In this document: positions 1,260-32,594 of the stretch, piece after piece
How positions within the stretch are numbered: the stretch's first letter is position 1
Layout: the number at the start of each line of letters is the position of its first letter
Source of the DNA: an uncultured Clostridia bacterium
Lineage (GTDB): Bacteria; Bacillota; Clostridia; Christensenellales; UBA1242
Direction: 5' to 3'
Assembly (NCBI GenBank): GCA_949949035.1
Contig: CATLHJ010000010.1
Span: forward strand, 1-35,643
Length of the DNA stretch: 35,643 nucleotides
Position numbers and translations under genes: made by a program
The notes under the pieces: model-generated
Told to the model about the DNA's origin: nothing
The model's database searches: none
What the model saw: only the letters and a program-made list of their open reading frames with translations

Positions 1260-1358
1260 CATAAACTTTTTTTAGCAAGGGTTTTATTCAAATCGCTATC
1301 ACCCACCAAATAGTGGATGCGAAGGCGGCAGAGCCAGCGACACGAGATTAAATTTGCT

Positions 1359-3686: not shown

Positions 3687-3693
3687 CCAAGTA

Positions 3694-3699
3694 ATAATA
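3694..3699 (-). promoter_or_regulatory. -10 box of radical SAM copy 1
   Basis: TATTAT on the minus strand, 7 nt before the ATG at 3686. It sits in the 60-nt gap after copy 2, the longest spacer in the array. Confidence 0.45.
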
Positions 3700-3746
3700 C
3701 CTTATTTTGGTACAGTTGTCTAAAATTTTTACCACTGCAAGCGGTG

Positions 3747-5191: not shown

Positions 5192-5197
5192 CATGGT

Positions 5198-5203
5198 AGT
5201 ATA
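5198..5203 (-). promoter_or_regulatory. -10 box of radical SAM copy 2
   Basis: TATACT on the minus strand, 6 nt before the ATG at 5191 and 3 nt after the stop codon of copy 3. No Shine-Dalgarno is present. Confidence 0.45.
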
Positions 5204-5206
5204 ACT

Positions 5207-6679
5207 TTACTTACGCTTTTTGTCATAACGTTTTGCCGAATTCACTAGATAAAGTTGGAAGGCGGTTAAATCCACAATGGGGTCACGCAAAATTGGATCT
5301 TGCAAAACTTCATACAATTCACGCGTCAAGTATTTATGTTTAATCAGTAACGATTTTTCGCGGTATTCTTTAGTCGTAAAAGAGCGCCAATTATTAAGTC
5401 GAGAATACAATAAAACGTCAGCATGAAAACGTTTGCCAAATTCAACAAAAACAGGGATTTCGCGGTAATTGTCTTTTTGCACAACGAAACGAAATTCCAA
5501 GAAAGCAATCGATTCCATTTGCCGTAAATTACTTAACATTTCTAGATTCTTCAATAACTGCCGATAATCACCACCGCGTAATTTGCGGAACGTCGCTTCG
5601 GTCGCTGAGTCCAAAGATACCGACACGCCAATACGTTCGTACTTGCCCTTTAATAATTGCCAGTTCTGTTCGTTGAACAAGGTACCATTGGTCAAAATGT
5701 GAATTTGTTTACGCTTAACATTACTGGTCAAAATACGGCGATAGATTGGACTGTGGAACACTTCCCCGTCTCCCGCCAGATTGAGCAATTCACTTTTTTC
5801 CAACCAGCCTGACCGTTCTAACTCATTTACCGCTCGTTCCGTAATTTCTTGTTCTCGTGCATTAGGTTTAGTATAGTAATCTTTACGGCAACTGGGACAC
5901 TTTAAGTTGCAGGTACGGTCAATTGCCACCACCAATTCTTGCGGGTAATCAGTAGTACTATAACACTCCGGCACATCACGTGTTATGTCGGCGTATTTAG
6001 CAAATTCGCAAGTTTGTAAATTGCATAAACAATAGGAACGATTTAAGGATGATAATTTGATAATGCGGGCCAAAACGCTATTATAGATACTGTCTAGGTC
6101 ACTCACTTTAAGGTTACCAAAAGCGGGGACCCAACCGCAACAACCGAAAACATTGCCATCATAATTAAGGTACGCAATTCTTTCCAAACGCTCACAAACC
6201 ACTTTAGTTGGCGGACTGTAAAGTACCTTGACAAATAATTCGGACGCCCGCAAAGACCCCACTGGCAAACAATTAATTAGAGCATAACTATGCAACTTAA
6301 ATGGACGCTTGATAAAACGTACCAGCCCTCGAATGCCGGCCGCCATCAGGTCATGATTTTGGATATGGCAACCAATCCGTTCAGCAAGTGTTGGGGGCTT
6401 TGATTGGTGAAGTAACCATAGCCGTTTTTCTTGTGCGTACTGTTGGTCAATCTGTTGACAAACTTCATTTAAGTAACTCATCCTTGGTATTTCATCTTTA
6501 ATTAGCACCAAGTTTTTACTCTTACGCTTAAAAGCACAAATTACAATTTTGTAGTCACTATACTTAATTACATCCTCCGCGGTTAAGCGTTCCACCATCG
6601 CGTAATTTTGCCAGTCCATCACGTACGCCACTTGCGGACAGATGCGTGCATCACCGACTAACAAAACCTTGTCGTTCAT
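5207..6679 (-). CDS. Radical SAM protein, array copy 3
   Basis: 490 residues. Rossmann-like domain about 3-75 (VLLVGDARICPQVAYVMDW). SPASM-like cluster: Cys162, Cys180-Cys181 in GNVFGCC, GNL, IYNSVLARIIKLS, then Cys217-x-Cys219-x4-Cys224. Radical SAM motif Cys257-x3-Cys261-x2-Cys264, AGDGEVFHS, ILTNGTLFN, then the barrel to about 440 and a basic KRYDKKRK tail. Standard SPASM domains sit C-terminal to the radical SAM core; here the Cys cluster precedes it, which I infer to be a permuted arrangement. The ATG lies 6 nt after TATACT with no Shine-Dalgarno; 15 nt separate it from copy 4. Confidence 0.92.
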   Translation of the reverse strand: MNDKVLLVGDARICPQVAYVMDWQNYAMVERLTAEDVIKYSDYKIVICAFKRKSKNLVLIKDEIPRMSYLNEVCQQIDQQYAQEKRLWLLHQSKPPTLAERIGCHIQNHDLMAAGIRGLVRFIKRPFKLHSYALINCLPVGSLRASELFVKVLYSPPTKVVCERLERIAYLNYDGNVFGCCGWVPAFGNLKVSDLDSIYNSVLARIIKLSSLNRSYCLCNLQTCEFAKYADITRDVPECYSTTDYPQELVVAIDRTCNLKCPSCRKDYYTKPNAREQEITERAVNELERSGWLEKSELLNLAGDGEVFHSPIYRRILTSNVKRKQIHILTNGTLFNEQNWQLLKGKYERIGVSVSLDSATEATFRKLRGGDYRQLLKNLEMLSNLRQMESIAFLEFRFVVQKDNYREIPVFVEFGKRFHADVLLYSRLNNWRSFTTKEYREKSLLIKHKYLTRELYEVLQDPILRDPIVDLTAFQLYLVNSAKRYDKKRK

Positions 6680-6685
6680 TACAGC

Positions 6686-6691
6686 AGTATA
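6686..6691 (-). promoter_or_regulatory. -10 box of radical SAM copy 3
   Basis: TATACT on the minus strand, 6 nt before the ATG at 6679 and 3 nt after the stop of copy 4. Confidence 0.45.
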
Positions 6692-6694
6692 ACT

Positions 6695-8146
6695 TTACTT
6701 GTGCCTTTTGTCATAGCGTTTTGCCGAGTTGGTAAGATATGGGGCAAAGGCAGTCAAATCGACAATGGGATCATTAAAAATTGGGTCTTGCAATACAGTG
6801 TACAACTCACGCGTCAGATACTTATTTTTAAGTAGTAAAGATTTTTGCCGATACTCGCGGCGGGTAAAAGCCCCCCAATTATTCAACCGTAAAAATTGTA
6901 CCCGATCCACCTTAAAGCGTTTGCTTAGACGCACAAAGTCCGCCAGCTCACGGTAATTATCTTTTTGCACCACGAAGATAAATTGCAAATACTTAATTTT
7001 ACCCGTTGCCTTTAATTCACTGATGAACGTTAAATTTTTTAACAACTGATTGAAATCCCACCCCCGTAATTTCTGGTAAGTTGCCGGTGTTGCTGCGTCA
7101 ACGGAAATCTCCACATTGATTTCGTCGAACTTATTTTTAACTAAATTCCAATTGGCTTGGTTAAACAAGGTACCGTTAGACAGCAAATAAACGGTTTTAG
7201 TTTTGCAATCCGTGGCCAATAAGTCACGATAATTACGACTGTAAAAAACCTCACCCATCCCCGCCAAAGTAACCGATTCGGCTTGGTCTAACCAACCCTG
7301 CTGTTGCAAATACGCGGTAATCGCACCCAATTTGTTTTGTTCAGTTTCATTAACCGTATGAAATTTACGCCGACAACTGGGACATTTTAAGTTACAAGAC
7401 GGGTCCATCGCGACTTCCAACGCCAACGGACTACGGTTAGACGGCCATGGCTTTAACTCTTGGTTAACTTGGTCAGTGTATTGTGCATAAAAACAACGCC
7501 GCATGTCGCATAGACAATAAGAACGATTAAGCGATGACAATTTAACGATTCGGGCTTGACGGCTATTGTAAAGATCTTCTCCGCCATTACCGATACGGCC
7601 AAAAGGCAAGCGCACCATATTGGTACAACACCCCCACAGATTTCCCGCTTCGTCCACCAGACAATTACGCTCCAAGCGGTCACACGCGATATTAGTCGGT
7701 GCAGCGTAAAGTACGCGCAATAACAATTCCGATGGTTTCATAAACTTGGGGGGTAATTTTTTCAACCAAAATTGACGACGAAAGGTTAAATGTTGACGCA
7801 CTCCATTGACCAGCCAAATTATGCCCCGCGACAGGATTACCCGCTGCGCCAATTTTTTCCACGGCACTTTGGGCTCAATCGCCGCGGCTTGCGCCTTAAA
7901 TGAATAGTCTTTATCTAATTCGCAACAAAGGTCATCAAGGGAAATGATGTTTAGTGTTTTATCTTTTATACTCGCCAATTTTTTGCTTTTACGTTTGAAA
8001 GCACAAATTACAATTTTGTGGTCAGCGTATTTACTTACATCGTCGGCACTTAAGCGTTCCACCATCGCATAATTTTGCCAGTCCATCACGTACGCCACCT
8101 GCGGACAGATGCGTGCATCACCGACCAACAAAATCTTTTCGTTCAT
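6695..8146 (-). CDS. Radical SAM protein, array copy 4
   Basis: 483 residues from the second of two consecutive ATGs, chosen because it keeps the 6-nt distance to TATACT seen for copy 3, which has only one ATG. Domains run as in the other copies: ILLVGDARICPQVAYVMDW, basic linker, NLWGCC with a GRIG/YNSRQARIVKLS segment, YCLCDMRRC, then CNLKCPSC, AGMGEVFYS, LLSNGTLFN, FVVQKDNYRE and the KRYDKRHK tail. It has GW where most copies have RGGD (LRGWDFNQ). Substrate unknown; no peptide precursor or transporter gene is evident nearby. Confidence 0.92.
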   Translation of the reverse strand: MNEKILLVGDARICPQVAYVMDWQNYAMVERLSADDVSKYADHKIVICAFKRKSKKLASIKDKTLNIISLDDLCCELDKDYSFKAQAAAIEPKVPWKKLAQRVILSRGIIWLVNGVRQHLTFRRQFWLKKLPPKFMKPSELLLRVLYAAPTNIACDRLERNCLVDEAGNLWGCCTNMVRLPFGRIGNGGEDLYNSRQARIVKLSSLNRSYCLCDMRRCFYAQYTDQVNQELKPWPSNRSPLALEVAMDPSCNLKCPSCRRKFHTVNETEQNKLGAITAYLQQQGWLDQAESVTLAGMGEVFYSRNYRDLLATDCKTKTVYLLSNGTLFNQANWNLVKNKFDEINVEISVDAATPATYQKLRGWDFNQLLKNLTFISELKATGKIKYLQFIFVVQKDNYRELADFVRLSKRFKVDRVQFLRLNNWGAFTRREYRQKSLLLKNKYLTRELYTVLQDPIFNDPIVDLTAFAPYLTNSAKRYDKRHK

Positions 8147-8152
8147 CATGCA

Positions 8153-8158
8153 AGTATA
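8153..8158 (-). promoter_or_regulatory. -10 box of radical SAM copy 4
   Basis: TATACT on the minus strand, 6 nt before the ATG at 8146 and 3 nt after the stop of copy 5. Confidence 0.45.
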
Positions 8159-8161
8159 ACC

Positions 8162-9583
8162 TTACCTGCGTTTTTTGTCATAGCGTTTTGCCGAATTGGC
8201 GAGATATGGGGCAAAGGCTTTCAAATCCACCATAGGGTCATGGAAAATTGGCTTTTGTAAATATTCATAAAAATCACGATCCAAGTATTTATGATCAATG
8301 ATCAGGCACTGCCGTGCGTAGGTCGCGGCATCAAAAGTATCCCAGTTGTTTAAGTGCAAGAAATAAATACCATCAGCATGAAACTGCTTGCCCAATTCAA
8401 TAAATTCGGCCATTTCCCGATAATTAGTGCGTTGTACTACAAAATTTAATTGCAACTGATTTATTTTCCCCGCTTGCCGTAAGTCGGAAATAAATTGTAA
8501 ATTTTGTAACACTTTTGCGAAATCTCCCCCACGCAACTTTTGATAAGTAGTTGACGTAGCCGCGTCTAAGGAAATTTCCGCGTGTACCGTCTTGAACCGA
8601 TCGGCCAATAATGCCCAATTATCGCGGTTAAACAAAATACCATTAGATAAGATATGAATTTCATTAGTCTGGATTTGCGGCAAAAGGTCACGATAGTTTT
8701 TGCTAAAAAAAACTTCCCCCTGTCCCGCCACAGTAACCGAACGTGGTTTTTTCAACCAACCGTCAGCAATTAATTTTTGCGACATTTCGGCAATTACGTT
8801 TTGTTCATAAACGTCAGCCTGGTAGTAATGTTTACGACAACTGGGACACCGTAAATTGCAGGAACGATCCGTAGCAATGATTACTTCCGTAGGATATTCC
8901 GGCGTCAGCATGTTTTTCAAAGTTGAGTCAACCTGTGGCACATATTTTGCGTTCAAGCATAATTGCCGATTACACAAACAAAATGAACGATTTAACGACG
9001 ACAATTTAACAATTCTTGCCCGCGGACTGTGTAAAATTTTTTGCGGGTTATCCTGTTTTAAGTTACCGAACGGTTCCACCCAGCCCGAAGCACAACCGCA
9101 GACATCACCATTATAAAAGATGTGGCAGACATTTTCTATCTTGTTACATTCAATATTAAGGGGTGGACTATACAAAACTTTCAAAAAAAGTTCCGACAAA
9201 CGTAAATCCTTTGATGGTATATGGTTTATCAGCCATTGGTTGCGCAAAACATGCTTTTGCCGCCAGTAATTGAGTAATTTTACTGCCAGTCGTTTCAACA
9301 AGCGTCGCGGCCGTTGAGAAATAATAACCTTTCGTCCCGCATTAGGACGGTCGAGCAAACGGCAAACATCGTCCAAATAGATTACTTTTAACGTTTTAGT
9401 TTTTATTTTTACCAAGTTTTTACTTTTACGTTTGAACGTACAGACCACGATTTTATAATCACGATATTGGGCAACATTTGTTGAAGTTAATTGTTCCACC
9501 ATCGCGTAATTTTGCCAGTCCATCACGTACGCCACCTGCGGGCAAATACGTTTATCGCCGACCAGCAAAATTTTTTCGTTCAT
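8162..9583 (-). CDS. Radical SAM protein, array copy 5
   Basis: 473 residues from the second of two ATGs. The N-terminal domain (ILLVGDKRICPQVAYVMDW) is nearly identical to that of copies 2-4, while the middle is more diverged: CNKIENVC, GDVCGCASGW, FGNL, FCLCNRQLC. The radical SAM motif is CNLRCPSC, followed by AGQGEVFFS and ILSNGILFN (Ile where others have Thr). The tail is KRYDKKRR. The conserved N-terminus with variable middle parts suggests a shared partner or cofactor site and differing substrates; this is inference. Confidence 0.92.
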   Translation of the reverse strand: MNEKILLVGDKRICPQVAYVMDWQNYAMVEQLTSTNVAQYRDYKIVVCTFKRKSKNLVKIKTKTLKVIYLDDVCRLLDRPNAGRKVIISQRPRRLLKRLAVKLLNYWRQKHVLRNQWLINHIPSKDLRLSELFLKVLYSPPLNIECNKIENVCHIFYNGDVCGCASGWVEPFGNLKQDNPQKILHSPRARIVKLSSLNRSFCLCNRQLCLNAKYVPQVDSTLKNMLTPEYPTEVIIATDRSCNLRCPSCRKHYYQADVYEQNVIAEMSQKLIADGWLKKPRSVTVAGQGEVFFSKNYRDLLPQIQTNEIHILSNGILFNRDNWALLADRFKTVHAEISLDAATSTTYQKLRGGDFAKVLQNLQFISDLRQAGKINQLQLNFVVQRTNYREMAEFIELGKQFHADGIYFLHLNNWDTFDAATYARQCLIIDHKYLDRDFYEYLQKPIFHDPMVDLKAFAPYLANSAKRYDKKRR

Positions 9584-9589
9584 CATGGT

Positions 9590-9595
9590 AGTATA
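9590..9595 (-). promoter_or_regulatory. -10 box of radical SAM copy 5
   Basis: TATACT on the minus strand, 6 nt before the ATG at 9583 and 3 nt after the stop of copy 6. The spacer is identical to that before copy 2. Confidence 0.45.
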
Positions 9596-9598
9596 ACT

Positions 9599-11005
9599 TT
9601 ACTTGTGCCTTTTGTCATAGCGTTTTGCCGAGTTGGTAAGATATGATTGAAACGACGTTAGGTCGACAATGGGGTCATTAAAAAGCGGGTCTTTTAATAC
9701 TGCGTACAATTCCGGTGCCAAATATTTATTTTTTACGACCATGCGGTTGCGAACATAATCCTTTCGCTTAAACGTGCCCCAGTTTTCTAACTGCTTAAAC
9801 CACACGTGATCAACATGCAAATCTTTACCCCACTGGACAAAAGCGGGCATGTCGCGATAATTAGCACGTTGCACCACAAAGTTAATTTCCAAGAAGTTAA
9901 TTTTCCCGGCTTGCCGTAATTCACTTAACATTGCCAAATTCTGTTGTAACTGCTTAAAGTCACCACCACGCACCCGCCGGTAAGTTTCTGGAGTCGCAGC
10001 ATCTACCGAAATAGAAACGTCAATCTGTTCGTATTGGTCTTTAATTAAATCCCAATTCGCTTGGTTAAACAAGGTGCCATTGGACAAAATAAAAATCTGT
10101 TTACGTTTGAAAGCGGTCGTGATTAGACGGCGGTAGTTCGGACTGTAAAATACTTCCCCCATACTGGCCAAAGTAATTGAACCCGCTTTATCCAACCAGC
10201 CGGCGTCCAATAATTGCGTCACCATGTGTTCAATATCGCTACGAGCATCGGGATTACCGGTGTTTAAGGTGCGCCGGCAACTGGGACAATGTAAATTGCA
10301 GGTTTCATCTAACGCCAATTCGATGACTACGGGATGGTCTTGGGGGGGCAAGTCTTTGAAGCGCGGTGCGATGTTGCGGTTGGCAAATTCACACTTATGC
10401 ACATTACACAGACAATAAGAGCGGTTAAGTGACGACAACTTGATAATGCGCGCACGTGCGTCATTGTAAACCACGTCGGGCTTTTGAATTTTAATATTAC
10501 CGAACGGCAGCAGCAATCCGGTAATGCACCCTGTCATGGAGCCATCGGGGTTGACCCGACACACCCGCCCCACGCGGTCACAGACAATGTCGGTAGGCGG
10601 GCTGAACAACACCCGCAATAGCAATTCTGACGGACGCAAATAACGCGCCGGTACTTTGTGCAACCAAAATTGACGACGAATCATACCGTGATACCACCAG
10701 CGTAAAGTTTTTAATAATACTTTTTTGGGGAGCACTTTAACGGGGTCAGTTGCGTAATTATTCCTCGCATAGGTTGCATCTAATTCTCGACCGAGATCAT
10801 CTAGGTATTTAAGGTTAAGCCCCTTGGTGGCTACCTTAACCAAGGTTTTACTTTTACGTTTAAGCGCACAGACCACAATTTGACAATCTTGATACTTGGC
10901 GACTTCGGCTAGACACTTCGCTGTGGCGTAATCTGGCCAATCCATCACGTACGCCACCTGCGAACAGATGTGCGACTCACCGACCAACAAAATCTTTTGC
11001 TTCAT
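9599..11005 (-). CDS. Radical SAM protein, array copy 6 (first in the array)
   Basis: 468 residues from the ATG at 11005; a GTG one codon upstream is less likely given the 6-nt distance to TATAAT. It has the same architecture: ILLVGESHICSQVAYVMDW, basic linker, SPASM-like cluster (Cys-x17-Cys in GSMTGC, FGN, YCLCNVHKC), CNLHCPSC, ASMGEVFYS, ILSNGTLFN, KRYDKRHK. It shows one Cys where most other copies have CC after the Gly. It is the promoter-proximal copy and has the best -10 box. The 28-nt gap to the coiled-coil gene upstream allows co-transcription. Confidence 0.92.
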   Translation of the reverse strand: MKQKILLVGESHICSQVAYVMDWPDYATAKCLAEVAKYQDCQIVVCALKRKSKTLVKVATKGLNLKYLDDLGRELDATYARNNYATDPVKVLPKKVLLKTLRWWYHGMIRRQFWLHKVPARYLRPSELLLRVLFSPPTDIVCDRVGRVCRVNPDGSMTGCITGLLLPFGNIKIQKPDVVYNDARARIIKLSSLNRSYCLCNVHKCEFANRNIAPRFKDLPPQDHPVVIELALDETCNLHCPSCRRTLNTGNPDARSDIEHMVTQLLDAGWLDKAGSITLASMGEVFYSPNYRRLITTAFKRKQIFILSNGTLFNQANWDLIKDQYEQIDVSISVDAATPETYRRVRGGDFKQLQQNLAMLSELRQAGKINFLEINFVVQRANYRDMPAFVQWGKDLHVDHVWFKQLENWGTFKRKDYVRNRMVVKNKYLAPELYAVLKDPLFNDPIVDLTSFQSYLTNSAKRYDKRHK

Positions 11006-11011
11006 CACTTG

Positions 11012-17051: not shown

Positions 17052-19526
17052 TCATCCCTTATACCCCCATATTACCGTGGCGGAACAACCAAAACTCCAC
17101 TCTAAATCCCACCCACTTGGCTGCGAACTTGCCTCACAATAAATTGTGGTCAATCCCGTACATCCATAGAATGCAGCAAATCTAATGCTGGTAACACTGT
17201 CGGGAATAACAACGCTGGTCAATCCTATGCAATTACTGAATGCCTGCACTCCAATGCTGGTAACACTATCGGAGATGACAATGCTGGTCAATCCCGTGTA
17301 GGCGAATGCATAATTCCCAATGCTGATAACGCTGTCGGGGATAACAATGCTGGTCAATCCCATACATCCATGGAATGCCTGCTCTCCAATGCTGGTAACA
17401 CTGTCGGGGATGATAATGCTGGTCAATCCCGTGCAATAGCCAAATGCCCACTCTCCAATGCTGGTAACACCATCAGGAATTATGGTATTGTTACAACCTG
17501 AAATTAATTCCATACTGGCAATTTCAATAATTCCATTTATTTCATTACCAGATTCATCGCGGCTGGTATATACTGGGTTGCTTAGGTCAACTTTAATTGA
17601 AGTCAATCCCGTGCAGCCCGAGAATGCATAATTTCCAATACTGGTAACACTATCGGGGATGACAACGCTGGTCAATCTTGTACAATCACTGAATGCAGAA
17701 TCTCCAATGCTGGTAACACTATCAGGGATGACAATGCTGGTAAATCCTGTGCAGCCAAAGAATACACAATCTCCAATACTGGTAACACTGTCGGAGATGA
17801 CAATACTGGTCAATCCCGTACATCTATAGAATGCCCACTCTCTAATGCTGGTAACGCTGTCGGGGATGACAATGCTGGTCAATCCCGTACATTCATAGAA
17901 TGCAGCATGTCCAATGCTGGTAACACTGTCAGGGATGACAACGCTGGTTAATCCCGTGTAATCGGCGAATGCATACTTCCCAATGCTGGTAACACCGTTG
18001 GAGATTATCGCGTTAGTTACTTCTTCGCTATTTATAATCAATTTGTTGGTATGGCAAATTGGATTTGAAGTACTATCACCAAATGATATTTGTACCCATT
18101 CATCTAAAGTGCCTAAGTAATTCATTGAAGATAATCCCGTGCAGCCAGCGAATGCCCATTCTTCAATGCTGATAATGCTGTCGGGGATGACAATGCTGGT
18201 CAATCCCGTACATTCATAGAATGCAGCATGTCCAATGCTGGTAACACTGTCAGGGATGACAATGTTGATCAATCCCGTGCAATGGGCGAATGCCCACTCT
18301 CTAATACTGGTAACACTGTCGGGGATGACAACGCTGGTCAATCCTGAGCAGCGAGAGAATGCATAATTTCCAATGCTAGTAACACCGTCAGGAATGATAA
18401 TGCTGGTCAATCCCGTGCAGCCAGAGAATGCAGAATTTCCAATACTGGTAACACTGTTAGGGATGGTTATTTCCGTTAATCCTGTACAGTTACAAAATGC
18501 ACCATCACCAACAGCATTCACACTACTTGGAATAATTATTTCCGTTAATCCTGTACAACGATCAAATGCACCATTACCAATACTGGTTACACTGTCAGGG
18601 ATAGTAATTGAAGTTAAACTACTACGGTTCTCAAATGCATCATCGCCAATAGCAGTTACATTAAAACCATCAATTTGATTTGGAATGATGATTTCTGTGT
18701 AGTTCTGTTTTCCGTAATCAGTTAGTCCAGTGATTGCACATGTACTTCCACTATTTTGCACCTTAAAGATTGCATTCCACCGTGCAGTAAGGTTAATACT
18801 TGATGTAAAATTATATGTTCCGCTTTCAATCCTATCACTGTTATAATACCAACCAGCAAAGTCATATCCGTCACGAACCGGCGTTGGCAAGACAAATTCA
18901 CAATTATAAACAACTGATAAATTATCAATTAAATTACCACCAGCACTGTCAAAAGTAATTATATGAGAACTTTCACCTGGAGTATTAGCCCCATCACCAG
19001 GTAAATTGCCTGATGAACTTGACTTAGGCGACTTGATTAAAACATCTTGGTTGTCATACCGCTTAAAACCACCTTGATTAAAATCAATTTCCGTAATTCG
19101 AAAATAGATATTCATAAAATCATACTCGGTATCCCATAGTGACAAATTTTCGGAACGCTCTACTTGCACATTCCAAGTTGAACTATCACCAGATTTCAAA
19201 AACCCAGTAAGTTCAACATTGCCCGTAAATAATTGTCCATTGTCAGCATCTTTTACCGTCATCACACCATAAAGCGCAACGATATCTTGGGTACTATGAT
19301 TAGTTATCTTAAATGTAAAATTGCTAACATTATAACCAAGTTGATTAGTAATGTTAGATTTATCGGTTACTTCAACGTCAAATAGTTTTGAATCATAAAT
19401 AGCGTCTTCTTTGGCTTGTTCTCTAGCATCTAACATGGGTTGAATAACATTGATATAAAGTGTAATCGGAGTAACAATCGTAAACAAAATCGTAATTATC
19501 ATTAAAATTTTACAAAATTTTCTCAT
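17052..19526 (-). CDS. Large BspA-like leucine-rich-repeat surface protein
   Basis: 824 residues. The ATG at 19526 follows TAGGAGG by 7 nt, and that Shine-Dalgarno overlaps the TAG stop of the upstream gene. Order of parts: signal-anchor helix (about 5-26); an extracellular beta domain (about 45-165) resembling FxLYD-type domains (NFTFKITNHSTQDIVALYGV); a linker; one Listeria-Bacteroides repeat (ITFDSAGG to GYDFAGWYYN, LTARW); then about 20 BspA repeats of 23 residues (SIVIPDSVTSIG-AF-CTGLT) with two short inserts. The repeats are nearly identical at DNA level. It is likely displayed at the cell surface for adhesion or binding. It ends with TGA and has no sorting signal. Confidence 0.9.
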   Translation of the reverse strand: MRKFCKILMIITILFTIVTPITLYINVIQPMLDAREQAKEDAIYDSKLFDVEVTDKSNITNQLGYNVSNFTFKITNHSTQDIVALYGVMTVKDADNGQLFTGNVELTGFLKSGDSSTWNVQVERSENLSLWDTEYDFMNIYFRITEIDFNQGGFKRYDNQDVLIKSPKSSSSGNLPGDGANTPGESSHIITFDSAGGNLIDNLSVVYNCEFVLPTPVRDGYDFAGWYYNSDRIESGTYNFTSSINLTARWNAIFKVQNSGSTCAITGLTDYGKQNYTEIIIPNQIDGFNVTAIGDDAFENRSSLTSITIPDSVTSIGNGAFDRCTGLTEIIIPSSVNAVGDGAFCNCTGLTEITIPNSVTSIGNSAFSGCTGLTSIIIPDGVTSIGNYAFSRCSGLTSVVIPDSVTSIREWAFAHCTGLINIVIPDSVTSIGHAAFYECTGLTSIVIPDSIISIEEWAFAGCTGLSSMNYLGTLDEWVQISFGDSTSNPICHTNKLIINSEEVTNAIISNGVTSIGKYAFADYTGLTSVVIPDSVTSIGHAAFYECTGLTSIVIPDSVTSIREWAFYRCTGLTSIVISDSVTSIGDCVFFGCTGFTSIVIPDSVTSIGDSAFSDCTRLTSVVIPDSVTSIGNYAFSGCTGLTSIKVDLSNPVYTSRDESGNEINGIIEIASMELISGCNNTIIPDGVTSIGEWAFGYCTGLTSIIIPDSVTSIGEQAFHGCMGLTSIVIPDSVISIGNYAFAYTGLTSIVISDSVTSIGVQAFSNCIGLTSVVIPDSVTSIRFAAFYGCTGLTTIYCEASSQPSGWDLEWSFGCSATVIWGYKG
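17150..18640. repeat. 69-bp tandem repeats encoding leucine-rich repeats
   Basis: About twenty units of about 69 bp repeat around the block GCTGGTAACACTGTC and the block AATGCTGGTCAATCCCGT, with few differences between adjacent units. Two inserts near 17,480-17,600 and 18,000-18,130 interrupt the array. Repeat number is likely to vary by recombination, and assembly collapse is possible. Confidence 0.85.
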
Positions 19527-19536
19527 TATTAGCCTC

Positions 19537-21048
19537 CTACTTAACCTCAAACAGAGCCCTTTCTTCTGCGGTTAAAGGCGCCATGCCATTATCGGTAAGG
19601 TAATTTTCCAGATTCGATAATTTCGTACCTAATAACATTTGATAAATAGATTTTTCTTTTTTCGCACGTAATTTCTTATAAAGGATATAACCAATAATCG
19701 ATGGGATCATGGAAAGTATACCTAAAACTATTCCAAAAACATTCATTACAATAAATGGAAAAGCGACTGCTAAACCCATTGAAAACAAAGACAATAAAAT
19801 TGACATTAACCCATATTTTCTTGATTGCTTATCGGCATTTTTAGTAACTCTTTTTTCAATTGAAGGGAAACTACCCATTGGCTCAAACCGTGTTGTAAAA
19901 GAGCGTGCTTCAAAGTTCTCGTTTCCAATTTTATAAGGCATTACATATTCAGGGGCAATGCAAAATTTTGTATCTAAAATTTGATGCGAAAAATTAGACC
20001 TAACTTCTTTAACATGGTCACCAGGAAAACGAACCTGCCCCATTGCTTTGCTTTTTGCTTTATTTATGACCGCTTCACTTGCCGAAGCTGACGGCGAAGC
20101 AAACTCCATTGCTAGACCACTTTCTGTAAACTCTGTAGCATCAACTTCTAAATTACACGAAGCAACTAAATCATCAAAGTATTCATCTGCTCCATGAGCA
20201 AAGGGACCCTTAATTCCTACACTAACTGTTTCATTAGTAGAAACAGTTCCGCTATAAGGTCGCCAATCGGTAACTGTTCGCTCTTTAATTACTCTTTGTC
20301 TAATGTTCTTTTTAAGGTCAGGGTCCCACTTATTTTCGTAAGCTTCGTATTGTTCTTTACGGTCATACCCGATTGATGCCGAATAAGAACCGTCAACATG
20401 AATTGTACAAAACATAAATTGCGGATAGTTAATGTAGACTTCTTCAAACTCACTATCAAGAATATTGGATGGTGTATCTTTAATAGACGCAAGGTGAATT
20501 AAAGATTTTCGCTTAAATTCAGCTTCATCGTAATAAGTCTTCATGACATAGTAAGGCGAATCAATTTCTGCTTTATTATTAACTATATTGATTTTAACTG
20601 GCGGTGTATTCACAGGCTTTTTAATAATAACTTTTGCCCCACAATGCTTACACATACCGAATGTATCGTTTAATATTTGGATTGCGGTTGACCCACAACT
20701 CTCACATGCGATATTGGATTTTGTTTGAGGTGCAACATTTTGCGAAAGATTTACCACAACATTGGGCGTAGTCGGTTCGGATTTTGATCTTGGATTTGGC
20801 GTTTCATTATTCTGGGAAATTAGCATTAACAATTTTTTAAGTTTATCTTCTAATACTTGCGTTGTATTATTTGGTGCGGTTGCATCTGGCATCACCGCTT
20901 CTTTTTCCTTAGCAATCACATCTAACAACGCTTTAATTTTATCTTCGATATTTTTTTTATCGTTCGAGTCACTACTTGACGATACCATATGGTTAGGTTT
21001 CAGCCCTAACGCTCGGTCAAGCATATCATCAAGGTTATCGTTCGCCAT
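19537..21048 (-). CDS. Zinc-ribbon protein with two C-terminal membrane segments
   Basis: 503 residues from the ATG at 21048, which follows GGGAGG by 7 nt. The N-terminal 110 residues are charged and low-complexity; residues about 123-145 form a zinc ribbon (CESCGS, CKHCGA); then a large soluble domain of unknown type (about 160-400); then two adjacent membrane helices (about 415-465, LMSILLSLFSMG and VFGIVLGILSMIP); and a short cytoplasmic tail. I do not recognise the central domain. The gene is first in an operon with the BspA-like protein (10 nt gap) and lies immediately behind a structured RNA leader whose 3' hairpin contains its Shine-Dalgarno sequence. Confidence 0.8.
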   Translation of the reverse strand: MANDNLDDMLDRALGLKPNHMVSSSSDSNDKKNIEDKIKALLDVIAKEKEAVMPDATAPNNTTQVLEDKLKKLLMLISQNNETPNPRSKSEPTTPNVVVNLSQNVAPQTKSNIACESCGSTAIQILNDTFGMCKHCGAKVIIKKPVNTPPVKINIVNNKAEIDSPYYVMKTYYDEAEFKRKSLIHLASIKDTPSNILDSEFEEVYINYPQFMFCTIHVDGSYSASIGYDRKEQYEAYENKWDPDLKKNIRQRVIKERTVTDWRPYSGTVSTNETVSVGIKGPFAHGADEYFDDLVASCNLEVDATEFTESGLAMEFASPSASASEAVINKAKSKAMGQVRFPGDHVKEVRSNFSHQILDTKFCIAPEYVMPYKIGNENFEARSFTTRFEPMGSFPSIEKRVTKNADKQSRKYGLMSILLSLFSMGLAVAFPFIVMNVFGIVLGILSMIPSIIGYILYKKLRAKKEKSIYQMLLGTKLSNLENYLTDNGMAPLTAEERALFEVK

Positions 21049-21200
21049 AAAAATGCCTCCCATAACGAGAGGCATAGTCCAAAACTACGAACTCCCGTTG
21101 CGGTCAGGCAATTTATCCCATAAGAACAGGGTGGTCGTTCGTTGTTTGGCGAAACAAAAAACCGTCCTTATGGTTAATATTAAATTGCCTGACCTACGAT
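21049..21200 (-). ncRNA. Structured cis-regulatory RNA, copy B (undescribed class)
   Basis: On the minus strand a 14-bp perfect closing helix (GGTCAGGCAATTTA, arms 21194-21181 and 21115-21102) encloses a second helix (CCATAAG/CTTATGG) and an inner TTGTTT/AAACAA stem with the motif TTTCGCC-AAA-CAACGAAC (21154-21137). After GCAAC comes GGACTATGCCTC..., a hairpin ATGCCTC/GAGGCAT (21075-21069 with 21059-21053) followed by T's and the ATG at 21048. The 3' arm carries the Shine-Dalgarno GGGAGG, so the hairpin can act as terminator or ribosome-site lock. Copy A (27211-27357) shares this layout and its key motifs. Confidence 0.75.
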
Positions 21201-21295
21201 AGATTACCGACATTTTCATTTTTCGTCAATAGCAAATTAATCGAATAAAGCATACTCCACCCCATGCCAATAAATTTAGCACACTTATTAAAAAA

Positions 21296-21381: not shown

Positions 21382-22218
21382 TTAGACACGCTTGATGTCT
21401 TCAAAAAGTATATCACCTTGATTTATAATCTCGTCAACCCTGTCCATATCAATATTTTCAACAAACATATCATCAATTAATTGACCTTCGCCATAATGAT
21501 GCTTATTGGTATTAACTCTTGCCTTATTAGCAAAAGCATCATCTCGCAATTGTTTTACTTCATTAAGGCTTAAATTTTTACATATTTCTTTGCGTGTATA
21601 CCTTGGTAAATCGCGACTGGCATTAATAAACTTTGCGCCAACTGGAAATTTGGTATATTTCTTGGCATCTTCCTCAAGTTCTGGGAAAACTTTCACATTA
21701 TGCTCTTCGTATGTCGTTATATAATATAAACAACCTTTCGCACCTTTATGCCATAATGGTTGCATATCGATATGTCCATGTATTCAGTTCTTTTTTAGCC
21801 ACGCACGTTCAAAATGCGGTGTTGTTTCGGGGAAAAACAAAATCAAATGACAATGATAAAGGTTGTCACTGTTTTCACTACACTCTATTGCCGAAATGTA
21901 TTTTACACCAGGGTGATGATACCGCAATAATGAAATAAAATTTTTGACTTCTTTTTTAAAGTCATTAAACGACATTTCATCGTGATTGGTAAGTGTCCAA
22001 AAAGCACACTTATCGCGTTCTAAATTAACATTAGCGAAATTTTCGCGATATCTCTTCAATGTCTTAATGTAATTTTTAGTCAATAAATATGGGTAGTCTT
22101 GATTTACTTTTTTACGATCCCATGTTGTATGACATTTTCTATTAGCAAACGGGTTAAAGCCATTACGTTTAACCATATATGAACTTTCGCCCGTCTGCAA
22201 TAACTTATATGTTATCAT
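21382..22218 (-). pseudogene. HUH-type replication initiator (Rep), interrupted by one in-frame TGA
   Basis: One continuous frame of 278 sense codons broken once by TGA at 21786-21784. The first part (144 residues) has KCAFWTLTNH and the metal-binding HUH motif HCHLILFF, typical of rolling-circle Rep and relaxase-like proteins that nick DNA and hold it through a Tyr. After the TGA the frame goes on as IHGHIDMQPLWHKGAKGCLYYITTYEEHN, where Tyr residues of YYITTY are candidate nicking residues. The TGA falls where Trp is common in this family (W-x-x-G-x-v/i). All other Trp codons are TGG, so a TGG-to-TGA mutation is the simplest reading. A Shine-Dalgarno-like AAAAGGAT precedes the ATG. Confidence 0.75.
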
Positions 22219-26998: not shown

Positions 26999-27210
26999 TC
27001 TATAGCTTGATAACTATAGTTTTTACCCGTTGCTACCTTGTTGCCATAACAAAAACCATTGATTTAATATCTCGCTACACCAGTCCATGCAACTACAGCC
27101 AAACACTAGAATGGCAAAAGTTTCGAGAATTTTATAGTTATATGGCACAATGATTTAACAGTATCTTACTAATCACTTGTGTTTTTTATTGGAAGATGTT
27201 AGGCTAACAA

Positions 27211-27357
27211 TGCGACACAATTCAATACTTTTAATCAACGGGAAACATTTTTCGCCTTTCAACGAACTTTCCGCCCGCTGGTTAAAAGTGGATTGTGTCG
27301 CAACAATGGAAGGTTTGTTCGATAAGGACTGTGCCTTCCACTGGGGAGGCACTTTTA
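27211..27357 (+). ncRNA. Structured cis-regulatory RNA, copy A (undescribed class)
   Basis: Closing helix TGCGACACAAT (27211-27221) with ATTGTGTCGCA (27292-27302), second helix CTTTTAA/TTAAAAG (27228-27234, 27282-27288), and an inner motif TTTCGCC-TTT-CAACGAAC (27250-27267) followed by TTTCCGCCC. After CGCAAC comes GGACTGTGCCTT..., a 9-bp hairpin GTGCCTTCC/GGGAGGCAC (27331-27339 with 27344-27352), TTTT, and the TTG start at 27358. The Shine-Dalgarno GGGAGG is inside the 3' arm. Layout and motifs match copy B on the other strand at 21049-21200, while helix sequences differ but keep pairing. Confidence 0.75.
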
Positions 27358-28599
27358 TTGAATAAAGACACAAAAGAATGTTTAATCAATTTACTTTTGG
27401 ATTTAGAAAGTAAAGAATACCAAAACATTGAACGAGAAGCCAATGCCGTCAATATATTTAATGTCTTAAAATTAACCCGTGCCGAAATCAGGCACAGCAA
27501 CTTTTTAGCCTGGTTATTAGACCCTAGCGAAAATCACGGGCTTGGGACAACATTTAGCAAGTATTTTTTTTATGAAATTTTTAATAATCTTAAAGATTTA
27601 GATGATTGTCGTTTCGACTTTGGAAAACTATTTCTAGAAAGCATTGATAAGTTTATTATTTACCGCGAAAGGTTTAACATTGATATTTTAATGGTCGCGG
27701 CAAACCAACTGGTTTGCATTGAAAATAAAATTGATACTTTTACTCACGACCAACAGTTAACACACTACCGCGAAAAGTTAAACCGACAATATCCTGCCCA
27801 TGAAAAATTATTCTTGTATTTAACACCAAATTGCGAAGACATTTCCGATTATCCCGATTGGCAAAAAATATCTTACCAGGCGGTCAGTACTACCATACAA
27901 AAAGTTTTAGAAACCAGCCCACTTAACCAAGAAACAGAAATCTTACTAAAAAATTACCAAAAAATTATTAAAGGAGAAATTATGAACGAAGATACCGAAA
28001 TTGAAAAATTATGTTTGGAAATTTATCGTAAGCACAAAACAGCCTTCGACTTAATTGATAAATACCGTCCTAACAATGATTTGAAAATCAGTGATGAAAT
28101 TAACGAGTTTTTACAATCGCGTCAAGACATCATTTACGAAAATGGTAATTTTAATGCTGGTAAAAATTGCCTAAAATTTACTACTAATACGATGTTAAAT
28201 TTTTTGCCACAATCGCCTACCATGCAAGAGAAACTATGGACCAAGGGTTGTTACTTTCTCTACGAAATCCACTTAAAGAGTAAAGAAATTAAGGCTGTTT
28301 TATTCCATTGTATTGACAGTGATAGTACTAAACAAAAGCTTGCCGAACATAAAATAAATCAAATCTTTGCATTATCACAAACCAACTATCGAGAATTTAA
28401 TATTAAAAAACAAGGTAATTTAAGTAAGAACTGGCAGTATTATACTGTTTATGCAAAGTCCCTACTACTAGACGAAAAGGCAGATGATAATGTGGAATCA
28501 ATAATCAGTAAATTAAAAAGTAAGTTAACAACTTTTATCGATAAAGAATTACCAGAATTTGAAAACAAAATAAAAACTACGCTAGGCCCTATTGCTTAA
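27358..28599 (+). CDS. PD-(D/E)XK nuclease family protein (PDDEXK_4-like)
   Basis: 413 residues from a TTG 8 nt after the Shine-Dalgarno GGGAGG; a start further upstream would lie inside the structured leader. Early motifs ARE-fit the family: RAEIRHSNFLAWLLDP and GLG. The nuclease core follows: Asp in FNIDILMV, then VCIENKID (E-x-K) and the downstream helix HDQQLTHYREKL. This matches stand-alone PDDEXK_4 (PF14281-type) proteins, often found in defence or mobile regions, with restriction-like DNA cleavage assumed but not proven. The C-terminal half (about 230-413) is a separate domain I do not recognise. It is the only gene behind RNA copy A. Confidence 0.85.
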   Translation: MNKDTKECLINLLLDLESKEYQNIEREANAVNIFNVLKLTRAEIRHSNFLAWLLDPSENHGLGTTFSKYFFYEIFNNLKDLDDCRFDFGKLFLESIDKFIIYRERFNIDILMVAANQLVCIENKIDTFTHDQQLTHYREKLNRQYPAHEKLFLYLTPNCEDISDYPDWQKISYQAVSTTIQKVLETSPLNQETEILLKNYQKIIKGEIMNEDTEIEKLCLEIYRKHKTAFDLIDKYRPNNDLKISDEINEFLQSRQDIIYENGNFNAGKNCLKFTTNTMLNFLPQSPTMQEKLWTKGCYFLYEIHLKSKEIKAVLFHCIDSDSTKQKLAEHKINQIFALSQTNYREFNIKKQGNLSKNWQYYTVYAKSLLLDEKADDNVESIISKLKSKLTTFIDKELPEFENKIKTTLGPIA

Positions 28600-28746
28600 C
28601 GCTGCTTAAAAATTTATTAAACTTTTAACCAAATACTCAAAACACCGGAAAATAACGCCATACAAAAGAAATACTATCCCGGCTAAGATGGGCTTTACAG
28701 CACCAAGAAACACTATTATTATCAAAACGAAAGGAGTACCGCACTA

Positions 28747-29343
28747 ATGAGAAATCTAACCCCAACGCAAATCGACATTTACAAAAATGATAGTAATAAA
28801 GTTTTGTTAATCTTGACGGGACTTGGCGGGACGACCACCGGTTATCATGACAAGTATATTACGATTGCCAAACAAGCCACGAAAAAGGGTTGGTCGGTGA
28901 TCGTTGCCGCTACCCCTAATGGTGCTTCTCTTGCCGAGAACGAACCCGAATATTTTAACGCTCTTTTGGACCAAGTCTACCAAGTTATGGAGAGCAAGGA
29001 CTTAACGATTTACGCCATGGGGCATTCACAAGGCGCCAACATTTTGCTATGGTGTGCTTATCTACATCCGCAAATTAAGCGTGTATTATCTATTAACCCC
29101 GTTTTAGATTGGAATACACATTTATTGCTTGACGGCATTAAAAATTTTGCTGGCGAAAAAATTGACATCATTATTGGCGAAAAAGACCCGTCTTATCCGT
29201 GGGTTGAAACATTACCGAAGAACAATATTTTAACAACAACAATCTTACCCAATATTAATCATGTGTTCAGCGGTAATTTACCGACTTTTATTGATTTACC
29301 AAAACGATTTTTATTTAATGATAAGGGGGGGGCAAATGGATAA
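28747..29343 (+). CDS. Alpha/beta hydrolase
   Basis: 198 residues with a strong Shine-Dalgarno (AAAGGAG). Core motifs: an oxyanion loop LTGLGGTTTGYHD, nucleophile elbow GHSQGA (Ser about 95), Asp in IIIGEKDPSY and His in NINHVF near the end, a complete catalytic triad in a compact fold without a lid. It lacks a signal peptide. It overlaps the ADP-ribosylglycohydrolase gene by 8 bases, so the pair is translated together. Substrate unknown; an ester or thioester of small molecules is the family default. A run of 8 G near its end also serves the next gene. Confidence 0.85.
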   Translation: MRNLTPTQIDIYKNDSNKVLLILTGLGGTTTGYHDKYITIAKQATKKGWSVIVAATPNGASLAENEPEYFNALLDQVYQVMESKDLTIYAMGHSQGANILLWCAYLHPQIKRVLSINPVLDWNTHLLLDGIKNFAGEKIDIIIGEKDPSYPWVETLPKNNILTTTILPNINHVFSGNLPTFIDLPKRFLFNDKGGANG

Positions 29344-30316
29344 GTTTGTCGAAATAGCCAAAGCCGTGATGATTGGTCACGCTATCGGAGACGCACTGGG
29401 TGTACCCGTCGAATTTTGCGAACGGGCTGATTTGGTCAAGAATCCTATTACTGACATGCAAGGTTATGGTTCTTTCAAAGTTCCCAAAGGCACATGGTCC
29501 GACGATACCAGTATGGCACTTTGTGCTTTGCAGAGTTTTACCAACGGTATGGTTGATTTTAACGCTATTATGAATAATTTTTGCAGGTGGTGCTATAACC
29601 AAGAATTTACCGCAACTGGTGTAACTTTTGATGTTGGTATTACCACTAATGAAGCAATCTACCGTTATTATCAACAAGGCATATCGTATGACCAATGTGG
29701 GCTTACCGACAGAAACAATAATGGCAATGGCTCACTGATGCGTATTCACCCATTTGTTTTGTATTTTCTTTATCAAAAGTATAATAACGAACATCTAGCA
29801 TATATAGATTTTATTGGGCAAGCCTCGGCGTTAACTCACGCTCATCCGCGTTCGCGTTTGGCTTGTGTAATATTTGCTTATATTTTAGCCGCTTTGATTG
29901 AAAAACCAAACAAAACATCGGTGTTGGAAAGTTTATGCGTTCTCGAAGAAGTTTACCATCATTGTTATGATTTAGGATTACATACTGACGAATATAATGA
30001 ATTACCGCATTTTCAAAGATTATTTGATGGTATTGAAAAACTAAATCGCGATGAAATAAAAAGTGATAGTTATGTGGTGCATACTTTGGAAGCGGCGGTT
30101 TGGTGTTTATTAACAACCAATAGTTATGAGGATTGTGTTTTAACAGCCGTTAATCTTGGTAGTGACACTGATACGACCGCCGCGGTTGCCGGTGCCTTAG
30201 CAGGAGCATTATATAGTTATGGTGCTATTCCAAAACAATGGCGTGATACTCTACTCAAAAGGGATGCGATTGAATCATTATGTGAAAAAGTATTTGTATA
30301 TAACAATTTGGGTTAA
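29336..30316 (+). CDS. ADP-ribosylglycohydrolase family protein (DraG/ARH type)
   Basis: 326 residues from the ATG inside the last codons of the hydrolase gene; the G8 run 3 nt upstream supplies the ribosome site. Signatures: GHAIGDALGVPVEF, GTWSDDTSMAL (metal-binding Thr/Asp), GNGSLMRIHP, HAHPRSRLAC, and LGSDTDTTAAVAGALAGALY (second metal-binding Asp cluster). Family members remove ADP-ribose from Arg, Ser, or other targets, or act on related N-glycosides. Both metal sites are complete, so activity is likely. Pairing with an alpha/beta hydrolase suggests a two-step salvage or detoxification module. Confidence 0.92.
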   Translation: MDKFVEIAKAVMIGHAIGDALGVPVEFCERADLVKNPITDMQGYGSFKVPKGTWSDDTSMALCALQSFTNGMVDFNAIMNNFCRWCYNQEFTATGVTFDVGITTNEAIYRYYQQGISYDQCGLTDRNNNGNGSLMRIHPFVLYFLYQKYNNEHLAYIDFIGQASALTHAHPRSRLACVIFAYILAALIEKPNKTSVLESLCVLEEVYHHCYDLGLHTDEYNELPHFQRLFDGIEKLNRDEIKSDSYVVHTLEAAVWCLLTTNSYEDCVLTAVNLGSDTDTTAAVAGALAGALYSYGAIPKQWRDTLLKRDAIESLCEKVFVYNNLG

Positions 30317-30384
30317 AACTCTTTACATTGCTATTGCTTACTTTATATTTTAATGTGAGTAGCAAAAGAAATAATAAAAAAGTA

Positions 30385-30413
30385 TTGACAAGTAGTAATC
30401 AAAAAGTTATTAC
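30385..30413 (+). promoter_or_regulatory. Promoter of the recombinase 2 leader
   Basis: A perfect TTGACA (30385-30390), a 17-nt spacer and TATTAC (30408-30413). Transcription would start near 30,420 and produce a leader of about 170 nt before the 46-codon gene. Confidence 0.7.
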
Positions 30414-30427
30414 ACTGTTACACGCTT

Positions 30428-30550
30428 GTGGAAAAATAATTTCCACTTGTGGAGCAAATCTTGTTTACAAGAATTTGTGTCCGCCTTATAACACCGTTTA
30501 TTATAAGGGCATCGTCAAACTGGAAAAATCAGTTTCTCGGTGTCTTTTTT
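30428..30550 (+). promoter_or_regulatory. Hairpin-rich leader ending in a terminator-like structure
   Basis: Consecutive inverted repeats: GTGGAAA/TTTCCAC (30428-30446), CAAAT-CTTGT/ACAAG-ATTTG (30455-30477), CTTATAA/TTATAAG (30485-30507), AAACTG/CAGTTT (30517-30535), and an outer pair ACACCG (30491-30496) with CGGTGT (30538-30543) followed by CTTTTTT. The outer pair excludes the CTTATAA hairpin, so alternative folds are possible. This looks like an attenuator controlling the small gene and the recombinase, or a recombination or transfer site. Confidence 0.5.
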
Positions 30551-30591
30551 ATTTGGACAAAGTACTGAGAACCTTAAAAGGAGGTTATCAA

Positions 30592-30732
30592 ATGTCTAAG
30601 CCAAAACGACCAGTACAATCCGTACTGATTGAGAGCCATCATGCGAACACTGAAGTTAATCGAATGTTTTTAACATACATTCATGAAGAAATCAAAAAAT
30701 TATCTCAACAAAAAAATAAAAAGGAGCAATAA
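30592..30732 (+). CDS. 46-residue basic protein ahead of recombinase 2
   Basis: Starts MSKPKRPVQSVLIESHHANT after the excellent Shine-Dalgarno AAAGGAGG, and ends in a Lys/Gln-rich helix (EEIKKLSQQKNKKEQ). It lies 2 nt before the recombinase ATG, so translation is coupled. Not recognised. Its position suggests an accessory factor or a translational activator of the recombinase gene. Confidence 0.65.
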   Translation: MSKPKRPVQSVLIESHHANTEVNRMFLTYIHEEIKKLSQQKNKKEQ

Positions 30733-30734
30733 GA

Positions 30735-32594
30735 ATGAAAATGAATAATTCGAAACGCAATCATAATTACGCAGTAGCCTACTGCCGTTTCAGTAGCGAT
30801 AAACAAAGAGATGAAAGTATTGAAGCACAAAAACGAGCAATCAATCTCTATGCCGAACAAAATAATTTAACCGTGCTAGAGTACTACGAAGACAAAGCTC
30901 AAAGTGCTAAAGACGATAAACGCACCAATTTTCAACGAATGGTACGCGAAATGCCAAACAATAACATTGGTACCATTCTAGTTCACAAAATGGATAGATT
31001 TTCGCGTAACATCATGCAATTTTTGGAATACGAAAAGAAGTTCACCGAAATGGGAGTTGAAATTGTTTATGTTGCCCAACCCGAAATGAACAACAAGTTT
31101 GTAAAAATGATGTACGCAACCATGGCTGAACAATTTCTTGATAACCTATCCAGCGAAGTTACCAAGGGCATGATTATCAACGCTGAACACGGCAAACGCA
31201 ATGGCAGTGTTGTACCTTATGGTTATAAAACCGAATCTTTATGCGATGCGGATGGTAATTTACTGCTCAATAAAAATGGTGGTGAACTTCATAAAGTAGT
31301 AATTGACCCTGAACGAGCAGAAGCCGTAAAACTTATTTTTCAAATGACAATCGACGGACATACACGCGCTAAAATCATTGAGACACTGACCCAAAAAGGT
31401 TATCGCAAAACCAGTAAAAAGAACTTTGGTAAAGAGTTTACGGGAACTTGCCTTGATAAAATCTTACGCAACGAACGCTATACTGGTGAATATGATTTTC
31501 ACTACAATAAAGGAACTCGTGACAAACCAATCCCCGCCACGATTAGAGTTACTCAAGAATTTCCAGCGATTATTTCCAAGGAAACATTTGCCACTGCGCA
31601 GAAAATACTCCAAGCCCGTAAACATCGTGCACCCGTTAATGCAGCGGAAGAATATTTGTTGACCGGTAAAATCTTTTGTGGAGAATGTAAAAAGCCATAC
31701 AATGGCATGCGCTGTAAAAGGCACGGCAAAATGTATGTTTATTACAAATGCGACAATCAAAGCAGTTATAAAAACGGACGCTATCAAAAAAACTATTGCC
31801 ATAATAACTCCATTCAAAAAAGTATGATTGAACAATATGTAATTGACGAATTAAAGCAAATTGTTTTTAATGACGCTTATATTGACCAAGTTTACGCCGA
31901 ATACGATAAATATGTAAAAGCCCAGGCAATTAACACATCAATGGTAGAAACATTAAAACATAAACTACATAGTATCGAAAGTAGCATTGCCAATATTCTT
32001 GACACGATTAGCCGTGGATATACTTCGCCGTCTATCATGGAACGGTTAACTCAACTAGAAAACGGAAAAAACCATACGCTTACCAGTATCCAGCAAGAAG
32101 AAAATACAACCGCTTACATATCTGCATCCAAAGATGATGTCCGTCGTGTTTATCGCCAAACTCGCGCCATTTTAGATGGTAACGACTTTACGGCGAAAAA
32201 ACGCATTGTCACGAACTTTGTTAACAAAATCATTGTTTATCAAGATAAGGTTGAAGTCTACATCAATCTTATTCCCACTATTTGCTGTGCAACACTTAAC
32301 CTTGATATTCTCAAAACCCATTTATGTAGTGGTGAATTACTTTATGGTGATTGGGACTTGGACAGCACCCATTCGGCAACTAATTTAGCGGAATACCATA
32401 AACTTTGCTCCCAGCCTAATGCGAAATTTACACCTGTTTTACCTCAAAACGCGAATGCTGATTGTGTTTTTACTACCGATAATCATATAGGGCAACCAAT
32501 AAGGAACTATACGAACCCAAAACAACACTCGGCGATAAAACTGTTCTTTATTGACGCTCATTTTGGCATAGTTGCCGATTTTTACCGCAGTTAG
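30735..32594 (+). CDS. Large serine recombinase 2
   Basis: 619 residues. Resolvase domain about 12-150 (AYCRFSSDKQRDES with catalytic Ser20 by family position, KMDRFSRN), recombinase domain about 170-290, zinc ribbon CGECKKPYNG with YKC and YC, and a coiled coil about 395-460. It resembles recombinase 1 throughout but is clearly a separate lineage. Its last about 70 residues (after LCSGELLYGDWD) have no counterpart in recombinase 1 and are rich in Asn/His/Thr; this tail may be a read-through fusion to foreign sequence. Probable integrase of accessory region II. It ends with TAG. Confidence 0.92.
   Translation: MKMNNSKRNHNYAVAYCRFSSDKQRDESIEAQKRAINLYAEQNNLTVLEYYEDKAQSAKDDKRTNFQRMVREMPNNNIGTILVHKMDRFSRNIMQFLEYEKKFTEMGVEIVYVAQPEMNNKFVKMMYATMAEQFLDNLSSEVTKGMIINAEHGKRNGSVVPYGYKTESLCDADGNLLLNKNGGELHKVVIDPERAEAVKLIFQMTIDGHTRAKIIETLTQKGYRKTSKKNFGKEFTGTCLDKILRNERYTGEYDFHYNKGTRDKPIPATIRVTQEFPAIISKETFATAQKILQARKHRAPVNAAEEYLLTGKIFCGECKKPYNGMRCKRHGKMYVYYKCDNQSSYKNGRYQKNYCHNNSIQKSMIEQYVIDELKQIVFNDAYIDQVYAEYDKYVKAQAINTSMVETLKHKLHSIESSIANILDTISRGYTSPSIMERLTQLENGKNHTLTSIQQEENTTAYISASKDDVRRVYRQTRAILDGNDFTAKKRIVTNFVNKIIVYQDKVEVYINLIPTICCATLNLDILKTHLCSGELLYGDWDLDSTHSATNLAEYHKLCSQPNAKFTPVLPQNANADCVFTTDNHIGQPIRNYTNPKQHSAIKLFFIDAHFGIVADFYRS

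Follow-up and report, generated by a model that had tools for sequence, protein, structure and literature searches.

The c-di-GMP riboswitches (GEMM) constitute multi-copy leaders controlling surface proteins in Clostridia, and linkage to one metabolic pathway is not obligatory for signalling riboswitches. The leader RNA described here resembles GEMM in preceding surface-protein genes in multiple copies, and differs from it in matching no Rfam family and in occurring in carriers without GGDEF. With riboswitches bearing intrinsic-terminator platforms in general, it shares its location in the 5' leader, a structured domain, mutually exclusive antiterminator and terminator, a candidate pseudoknot and versions that hide the ribosome site; it departs from them again by the lack of an Rfam match, and its targets are surface and defence-like genes rather than the genes of one pathway. 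The RNA targets of ANTAR and BglG/LicT (CAT-RBD) proteins likewise have a conserved antiterminator hairpin that shares sequence with the terminator 5' arm, and the present RNA has a large extra sensor domain upstream, and the cognate protein families are missing from many or all of its carriers. For the SLH motif, a riboswitch candidate, 80 examples are reported from Synergistaceae, Clostridia and Negativicutes, about 60% of them preceding S-layer-homology genes (PMC6429828). Both it and the present RNA are Clostridia leaders before surface-protein genes, which makes it a functional cousin as regards targets; judged by the published description, the present RNA differs in having BspA-LRR and lipoprotein targets and in its range, our phylum-wide draw having matched only the window's own genome.

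Two copies of this RNA, A and B, were found in the window, i.e. the whole stretch of 35,643 nucleotides analysed here (contig CATLHJ010000010.1 of assembly GCA_949949035.1, from an uncultured Clostridia bacterium). Both are leader RNAs of about 147 nt, running from a sigma-A-type promoter to an intrinsic terminator with a common order of parts. In the family to which they belong, a conserved structured sensor domain in the 5' leader (domain 1) comprises, from 5' to 3', the helix P1, of 9-14 bp, a short joining segment in which an A is conserved, the helix P2 and the apical hairpin P3, directly after which stand unpaired pyrimidine-rich bases. Domain 1 is followed by a conserved RCAA linker, a switching strand (S) and the terminator. 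S is complementary to two mutually exclusive partners, the terminator 5' arm (T5) and a segment M consisting of the P3 3' strand and the unpaired bases behind it, and these pairings covary; the expression platform thus has mutually exclusive states, S with M or with T5 and terminator versus antiterminator. The parts of copy A and its gene are the following.

27177 to 27205, forward strand: promoter, position-matched to the family promoter profile
27177 to 27182, forward strand: -35 element TTGTGT, read from the sequence
27197 to 27198, forward strand: TG, read from the sequence
27200 to 27205, forward strand: -10 element TAGGCT, weak or degraded (TATACT in the ortholog L026)
27211 to 27357, forward strand: whole leader RNA from +1 to the T-run, the best match in the genome to covariance model R2 (86 bits)
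27211 to 27224, forward strand: P1 5' strand, partner 27289-27302 (alignment, family covariation)
27228 to 27236, forward strand: P2 5' strand, partner 27280-27288 (fold)
27255 to 27272, forward strand: segment M, made up of the P3 3' strand and the CTTTCC behind it, which pairs with S (S:M duplex -16.7 kcal/mol, family covariation)
27289 to 27302, forward strand: P1 3' strand (alignment)
27303 to 27306, forward strand: conserved linker ACAA, RCAA in the family (family alignment)
27307 to 27321, forward strand: switching strand S, TGGAAGGTTTGTTCG (alignment, nascent folding, duplex energies)
27331 to 27356, forward strand: terminator including TTTT, with its 5' arm at 27331-27339 and its 3' arm at 27344-27352
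27343 to 27349, forward strand: Shine-Dalgarno GGGGAGG, in the terminator 3' arm
27358 to 28599, forward strand: PDDEXK_4 nuclease of the PADLOC candidate defence family PDC-S26, likely start TTG 27358

Judging from its -10 element and that of its ortholog, copy A may be weakly transcribed. The region that it heads (27358-32594) contains, in this order, the PDC-S26 candidate nuclease, an alpha/beta hydrolase and an ADP-ribosylglycohydrolase, and a large serine recombinase, and looks like a mobile island. The corresponding features of copy B and its operon are as follows.

21201 to 21229, reverse strand: promoter, with TTGACG at 21229-21224, a 17-nt spacer and TAATCT at 21206-21201, judged against the family profile
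21049 to 21194, reverse strand: leader RNA (R2, 74 bits)
21194 to 21181 with 21115 to 21102, reverse strand: P1 (alignment)
21088 to 21097, reverse strand: switching strand S, CGGGAGTTCG (nascent folding, duplex energies)
21075 to 21067 and 21061 to 21053, reverse strand: terminator arms (alignment)
19537 to 21048, reverse strand: first gene, about 503 aa, likely ATG 21048, zinc-ribbon-like by eye and without a Pfam match
17052 to 19550, reverse strand: second gene, encoding a BspA-type LRR_5 protein; no other gene class is as common in the family

Because the second gene of the copy-B operon encodes an LRR_5 protein, both copies in the window fit the family. The gene for a rolling-circle replication protein (REP_ORF2-G2P) lies directly upstream of copy B (21382-22218) and seems to be broken into two frames. 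Positions 2214-11008 of the window encode about six paralogous proteins in tandem, with a radical-SAM cysteine motif resembling CNLRCPSCR.

A previous reading of this DNA, made from sequence only, had proposed twin structured leaders at 27211-27357 on the forward strand and 21049-21200 on the reverse strand. Both are present, copy B being placed here at 21049-21194. The folds of A and B reach z = -7.7 and z = -6.8, respectively, with none of 200 shuffles as good. The closing helix, previously given as 11 bp, is a P1 of 14 bp in both copies once they are aligned, and the idea that the helices differ in sequence and still pair was borne out, with eight of the 14 P1 pairs changed between A and B and pairing kept; the terminator hairpin has 9 bp in either copy. 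The 3' hairpin had been held able to act as a terminator and as a lock on the ribosome site, which agrees with the Shine-Dalgarno found inside the terminator 3' arm of A and B. As had been stated, the loop motif TTTCGCC-NNN-CAACGAAC is identical in both copies, with two exact matches in the window (27250-27267, forward; 21137-21154, reverse), and the whole-genome count of this exact 15-base motif is also two. Its conservation is nevertheless restricted to the A/B lineage, the equivalent of the TTTCGCC/CAACGAAC loop in the wider family reading approximately GGTAAAA..GCATGCTCT, and the motif is one partner of a switching strand instead of a family-wide ligand pocket. In the A/B lineage it is segment M, with GTTCG as its partner in S. 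The earlier description lacked a third helix (the segment after P1 with the terminator 5' arm), a fourth pairing (the same segment with the CAACGAAC...CC part) and a promoter placing +1 on the first base of P1; the CAACGAAC motif had appeared conserved because CAACGAAC...CC pairs with the segment after P1.

The sequence-only reading called for further homologues with compensatory changes, and these were found. A third copy (L026) precedes the ortholog of the copy-A nuclease gene in another genome of the genus. A covariance model built from these three copies (R1: A, B and L026) matched 37 of 396 genomes of the order, and a second one (R2), built from a 33-sequence alignment, matched 91 of 391 genomes of the class, distributed over 54 genera. 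Ten genomes inspected more closely contained between 2 and 22 copies each. Of 398 genomes drawn from across the phylum, the window's own was the sole match, which bounds both the false-positive rate and the range of the family. In the 33-sequence alignment, double (compensatory) changes were observed in 19 of the 22 predicted pairs of P1 and the terminator. Over the RNA in the window and in 20 homologous loci, no Rfam 15 family, T-box, GEMM, SAM and 6S included, was matched at the gathering score, in line with the earlier suspicion that the RNA belongs to no named class; permissive Rfam scans of copy A and eight loci yielded chance-level matches only.

A structural-pattern search of public genomes recovered more than 120 contigs, nearly all from Clostridia in gut samples, with one named strain among the carriers, Cuneatibacter caecimuris DSM 29486. 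The pattern was also matched in 26 viral contigs, 25 of them convincingly; the remaining match (L205) was rejected as spurious, having neither promoter nor terminator. Two of the viral contigs examined carry genes for phage replication and for a large RNA polymerase of phage type. Seven viral contigs (L206, L209, L210, L212, L213, L218 and L227) carry a near-identical promoter and RNA; in L209, which has a YonO-like phage RNA polymerase gene, the RNA precedes a lipoprotein-like gene. Other searches were less productive: exact-motif matching at the family level found a single ortholog, since the motif is specific to the A/B lineage, the 19 exact-motif matches in viral contigs were discarded as chance-like, their flanks being without match, and blastn against annotated phages and plasmids found no match because the RNA is too diverged.

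Multiple copies with a patchy distribution, also in phages and before unrelated genes, might be expected of a mobile or repeat element (MITE-like) with RNA structure as a by-product. We regard this explanation as very improbable: structure rather than sequence is common to the copies, inspection of the locus listings revealed no common flanks or target-site pattern, helices are kept by compensatory change and the position relative to genes is fixed.

The promoter of the family, derived from 67 non-redundant loci, consists of TTGAAA at -34 and TGnTATAAT at -14 to -6, so that +1 is likely to be the first base of P1. Promoter and terminator both agree with the predicted strand, opposite-strand transcription having been named earlier as an objection. 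Taking these parts together with the sensor domain, we consider it probable that the RNA attenuates transcription in cis, as an orphan riboswitch-like leader in which promoter, sensor domain, expression platform and ribosome site form a cassette. A unit that is complete, having a strong promoter and a terminator of its own, and that occurs in many copies per genome, with separate promoter-like sites in some tandem copies (L040, L053), could alternatively be an independently transcribed small RNA gene acting in trans, to which the downstream gene is incidental. The arrangement of the loci argues against it and leaves it improbable, as 114 of 126 loci have a co-oriented gene next to the RNA, 92 of these 114 genes begin 15-60 nt past the terminator, one target class is strongly enriched, the ribosome site of the start codon lies within the terminator in A, B and relatives, and the conserved antiterminator serves read-through.

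The earlier view of a portable module before unrelated genes holds insofar as the genes vary, but their choice is non-random and rich in secreted and BspA-LRR proteins. One crude test, applied alike to both sets, gave a signal-peptide-like start in 69% of downstream proteins versus 20% of 610 neighbouring ORFs, and a lipobox in 33% versus 3%. BspA-type LRR_5 domains, which occur in putative host-contact proteins, were detected in 27 of 109 downstream proteins and in two of 100 control ORFs. A minority of downstream genes are defence candidates (PDC-S29, PDC-S30 and PDC-S57, besides PDC-S26 under copy A). The targets, i.e. secreted, LRR, lipoprotein, zinc-ribbon and defence-like genes, do not belong to one metabolic pathway; they suggest that the RNA controls the surface and secreted proteome plus some defence genes.

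The switching strand was assessed by energies of isolated strands, by alignment columns and by folding of nascent transcripts. Across the 67 non-redundant loci, the S:M duplex of isolated strands has -15.4 kcal/mol, and exchanging the partner for that of another locus gives -10.3 +/- 0.33; S:T5 has -12.8 kcal/mol versus -9.1 +/- 0.25 with foreign partners, while S with the 5' half of domain 1, the control, gave no signal (-8.2 versus -8.4). These values were reproduced on 31 loci from a separate search (S:M, -14.8 versus -9.3 +/- 0.5; S:T5, -15.0 versus -9.7 +/- 0.6; control without signal). In a 69-sequence alignment, double changes affect 16 of the 17 S:M pairs, and the covariation score of the S:M columns (0.348) exceeds all shuffles (0.249 +/- 0.011) and all slides (at most 0.16). 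The S:T5 columns score clearly above slides but only modestly above shuffles (0.254 versus 0.240), this part of the alignment having many gaps. For 64 of 66 loci, the S:T5 antiterminator is predicted to dominate as long as the nascent transcript lacks the terminator 3' arm. Folding of A and B shows it by 131 nt, and the terminator does not win until the RNA is complete, its lead then being 1.7 and 3.1 kcal/mol, respectively; such a fine balance is typical of attenuators.

We infer the order of events, the sign of control and which state is ligand-bound, as follows. By default, P3 would keep M occupied, and S would capture T5 once T5 is made, giving an antiterminator through which RNA polymerase reads, with the gene on. 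A trigger would make S pair with M, in a pseudoknot that opens P3 with the unpaired bases as a foothold, and this pairing would free T5, allowing the terminator to form and turning the gene off; in A and B, the terminator hairpin would hide the ribosome-binding site as well. With P1 and P2 intact, S:M would be a pseudoknot needing a bend at the P1/P2 joint, or else P2 would have to open. Since equilibrium folding of A and B favours the terminator, the default could be off instead of on.

The main rival to a metabolite riboswitch is a protein outside the known families as the input, i.e. a cis-acting attenuator operated by an RNA-binding protein acting as antiterminator or anti-antiterminator. 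P1 sequence is kept beyond pairing needs (most P1 pairs are the same in about 90% of the 33 sequences), such proteins classically act where antiterminator and terminator overlap, and unpaired conservation across the family is slight, comprising the RCAA linker and one A between P1 and P2. The known families fit poorly with this: among 20 element-rich genomes, CAT_RBD occurs in none and ANTAR is missing from 13, by which BglG/LicT-type and ANTAR proteins were rejected as obligatory inputs. The covarying three-partner switching strand, moreover, needs no protein, and we judge protein operation to be rather unlikely. Cyclic di-GMP was also rejected as an obligatory input, GGDEF being absent from seven of the 20 carriers, among them a 99% complete genome with 11 copies of the RNA. 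As for the trigger itself, a small molecule or ion is quite possible, if short of probable; a protein outside the known antiterminator families is appreciably less likely, and something else, such as a trans RNA or temperature, slightly less likely again. The riboswitch reading can be stated in full only tentatively: the surface proteome of gut Clostridia, together with some of their defence genes, would be governed by a new class responding to a ligand or a physiological signal; their phages would have borrowed this class, which would work by strand exchange in which S mimics the P3 5' arm and the terminator 5' arm mimics the P3 3' arm.

No description of the leader RNA was found in the open full-text literature. 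A term search of the main texts of candidate RNA surveys of human microbiomes and of 26 or 50 bacterial genomes gave no match (PMC8040213, PMC8632094, PMC11109978); the large candidate lists of these surveys might nevertheless include the present RNA without a name. Being absent from Rfam and reaching 22 copies in a single genome of gut Clostridia, it would rank among the larger remaining orphan leader families, and one signal would link phage genes and candidate phage-defence genes with the genes for secreted lipoproteins and BspA-type LRR proteins. Identifying that signal would reveal what mostly uncultured gut Clostridia monitor when altering their surface, and the three-partner switching strand offers clear testable predictions.

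Some loci depart from the common arrangement. Tandem pairs of the RNA, about 200-320 nt apart, occur in L040 (1209-1641) and L053 (1278-1642), where they precede a SLOG-like protein recognised by eye, and also in G805, G908, G294, G577, G757 and G809. Two copies (L112 and L169) have an intact domain 1 and no recognisable terminator, and are probably decayed or equipped with different expression platforms. In L033, a SAM-I riboswitch (1252-1338, reverse strand) lies divergently about 160 nt from a copy of the leader RNA.
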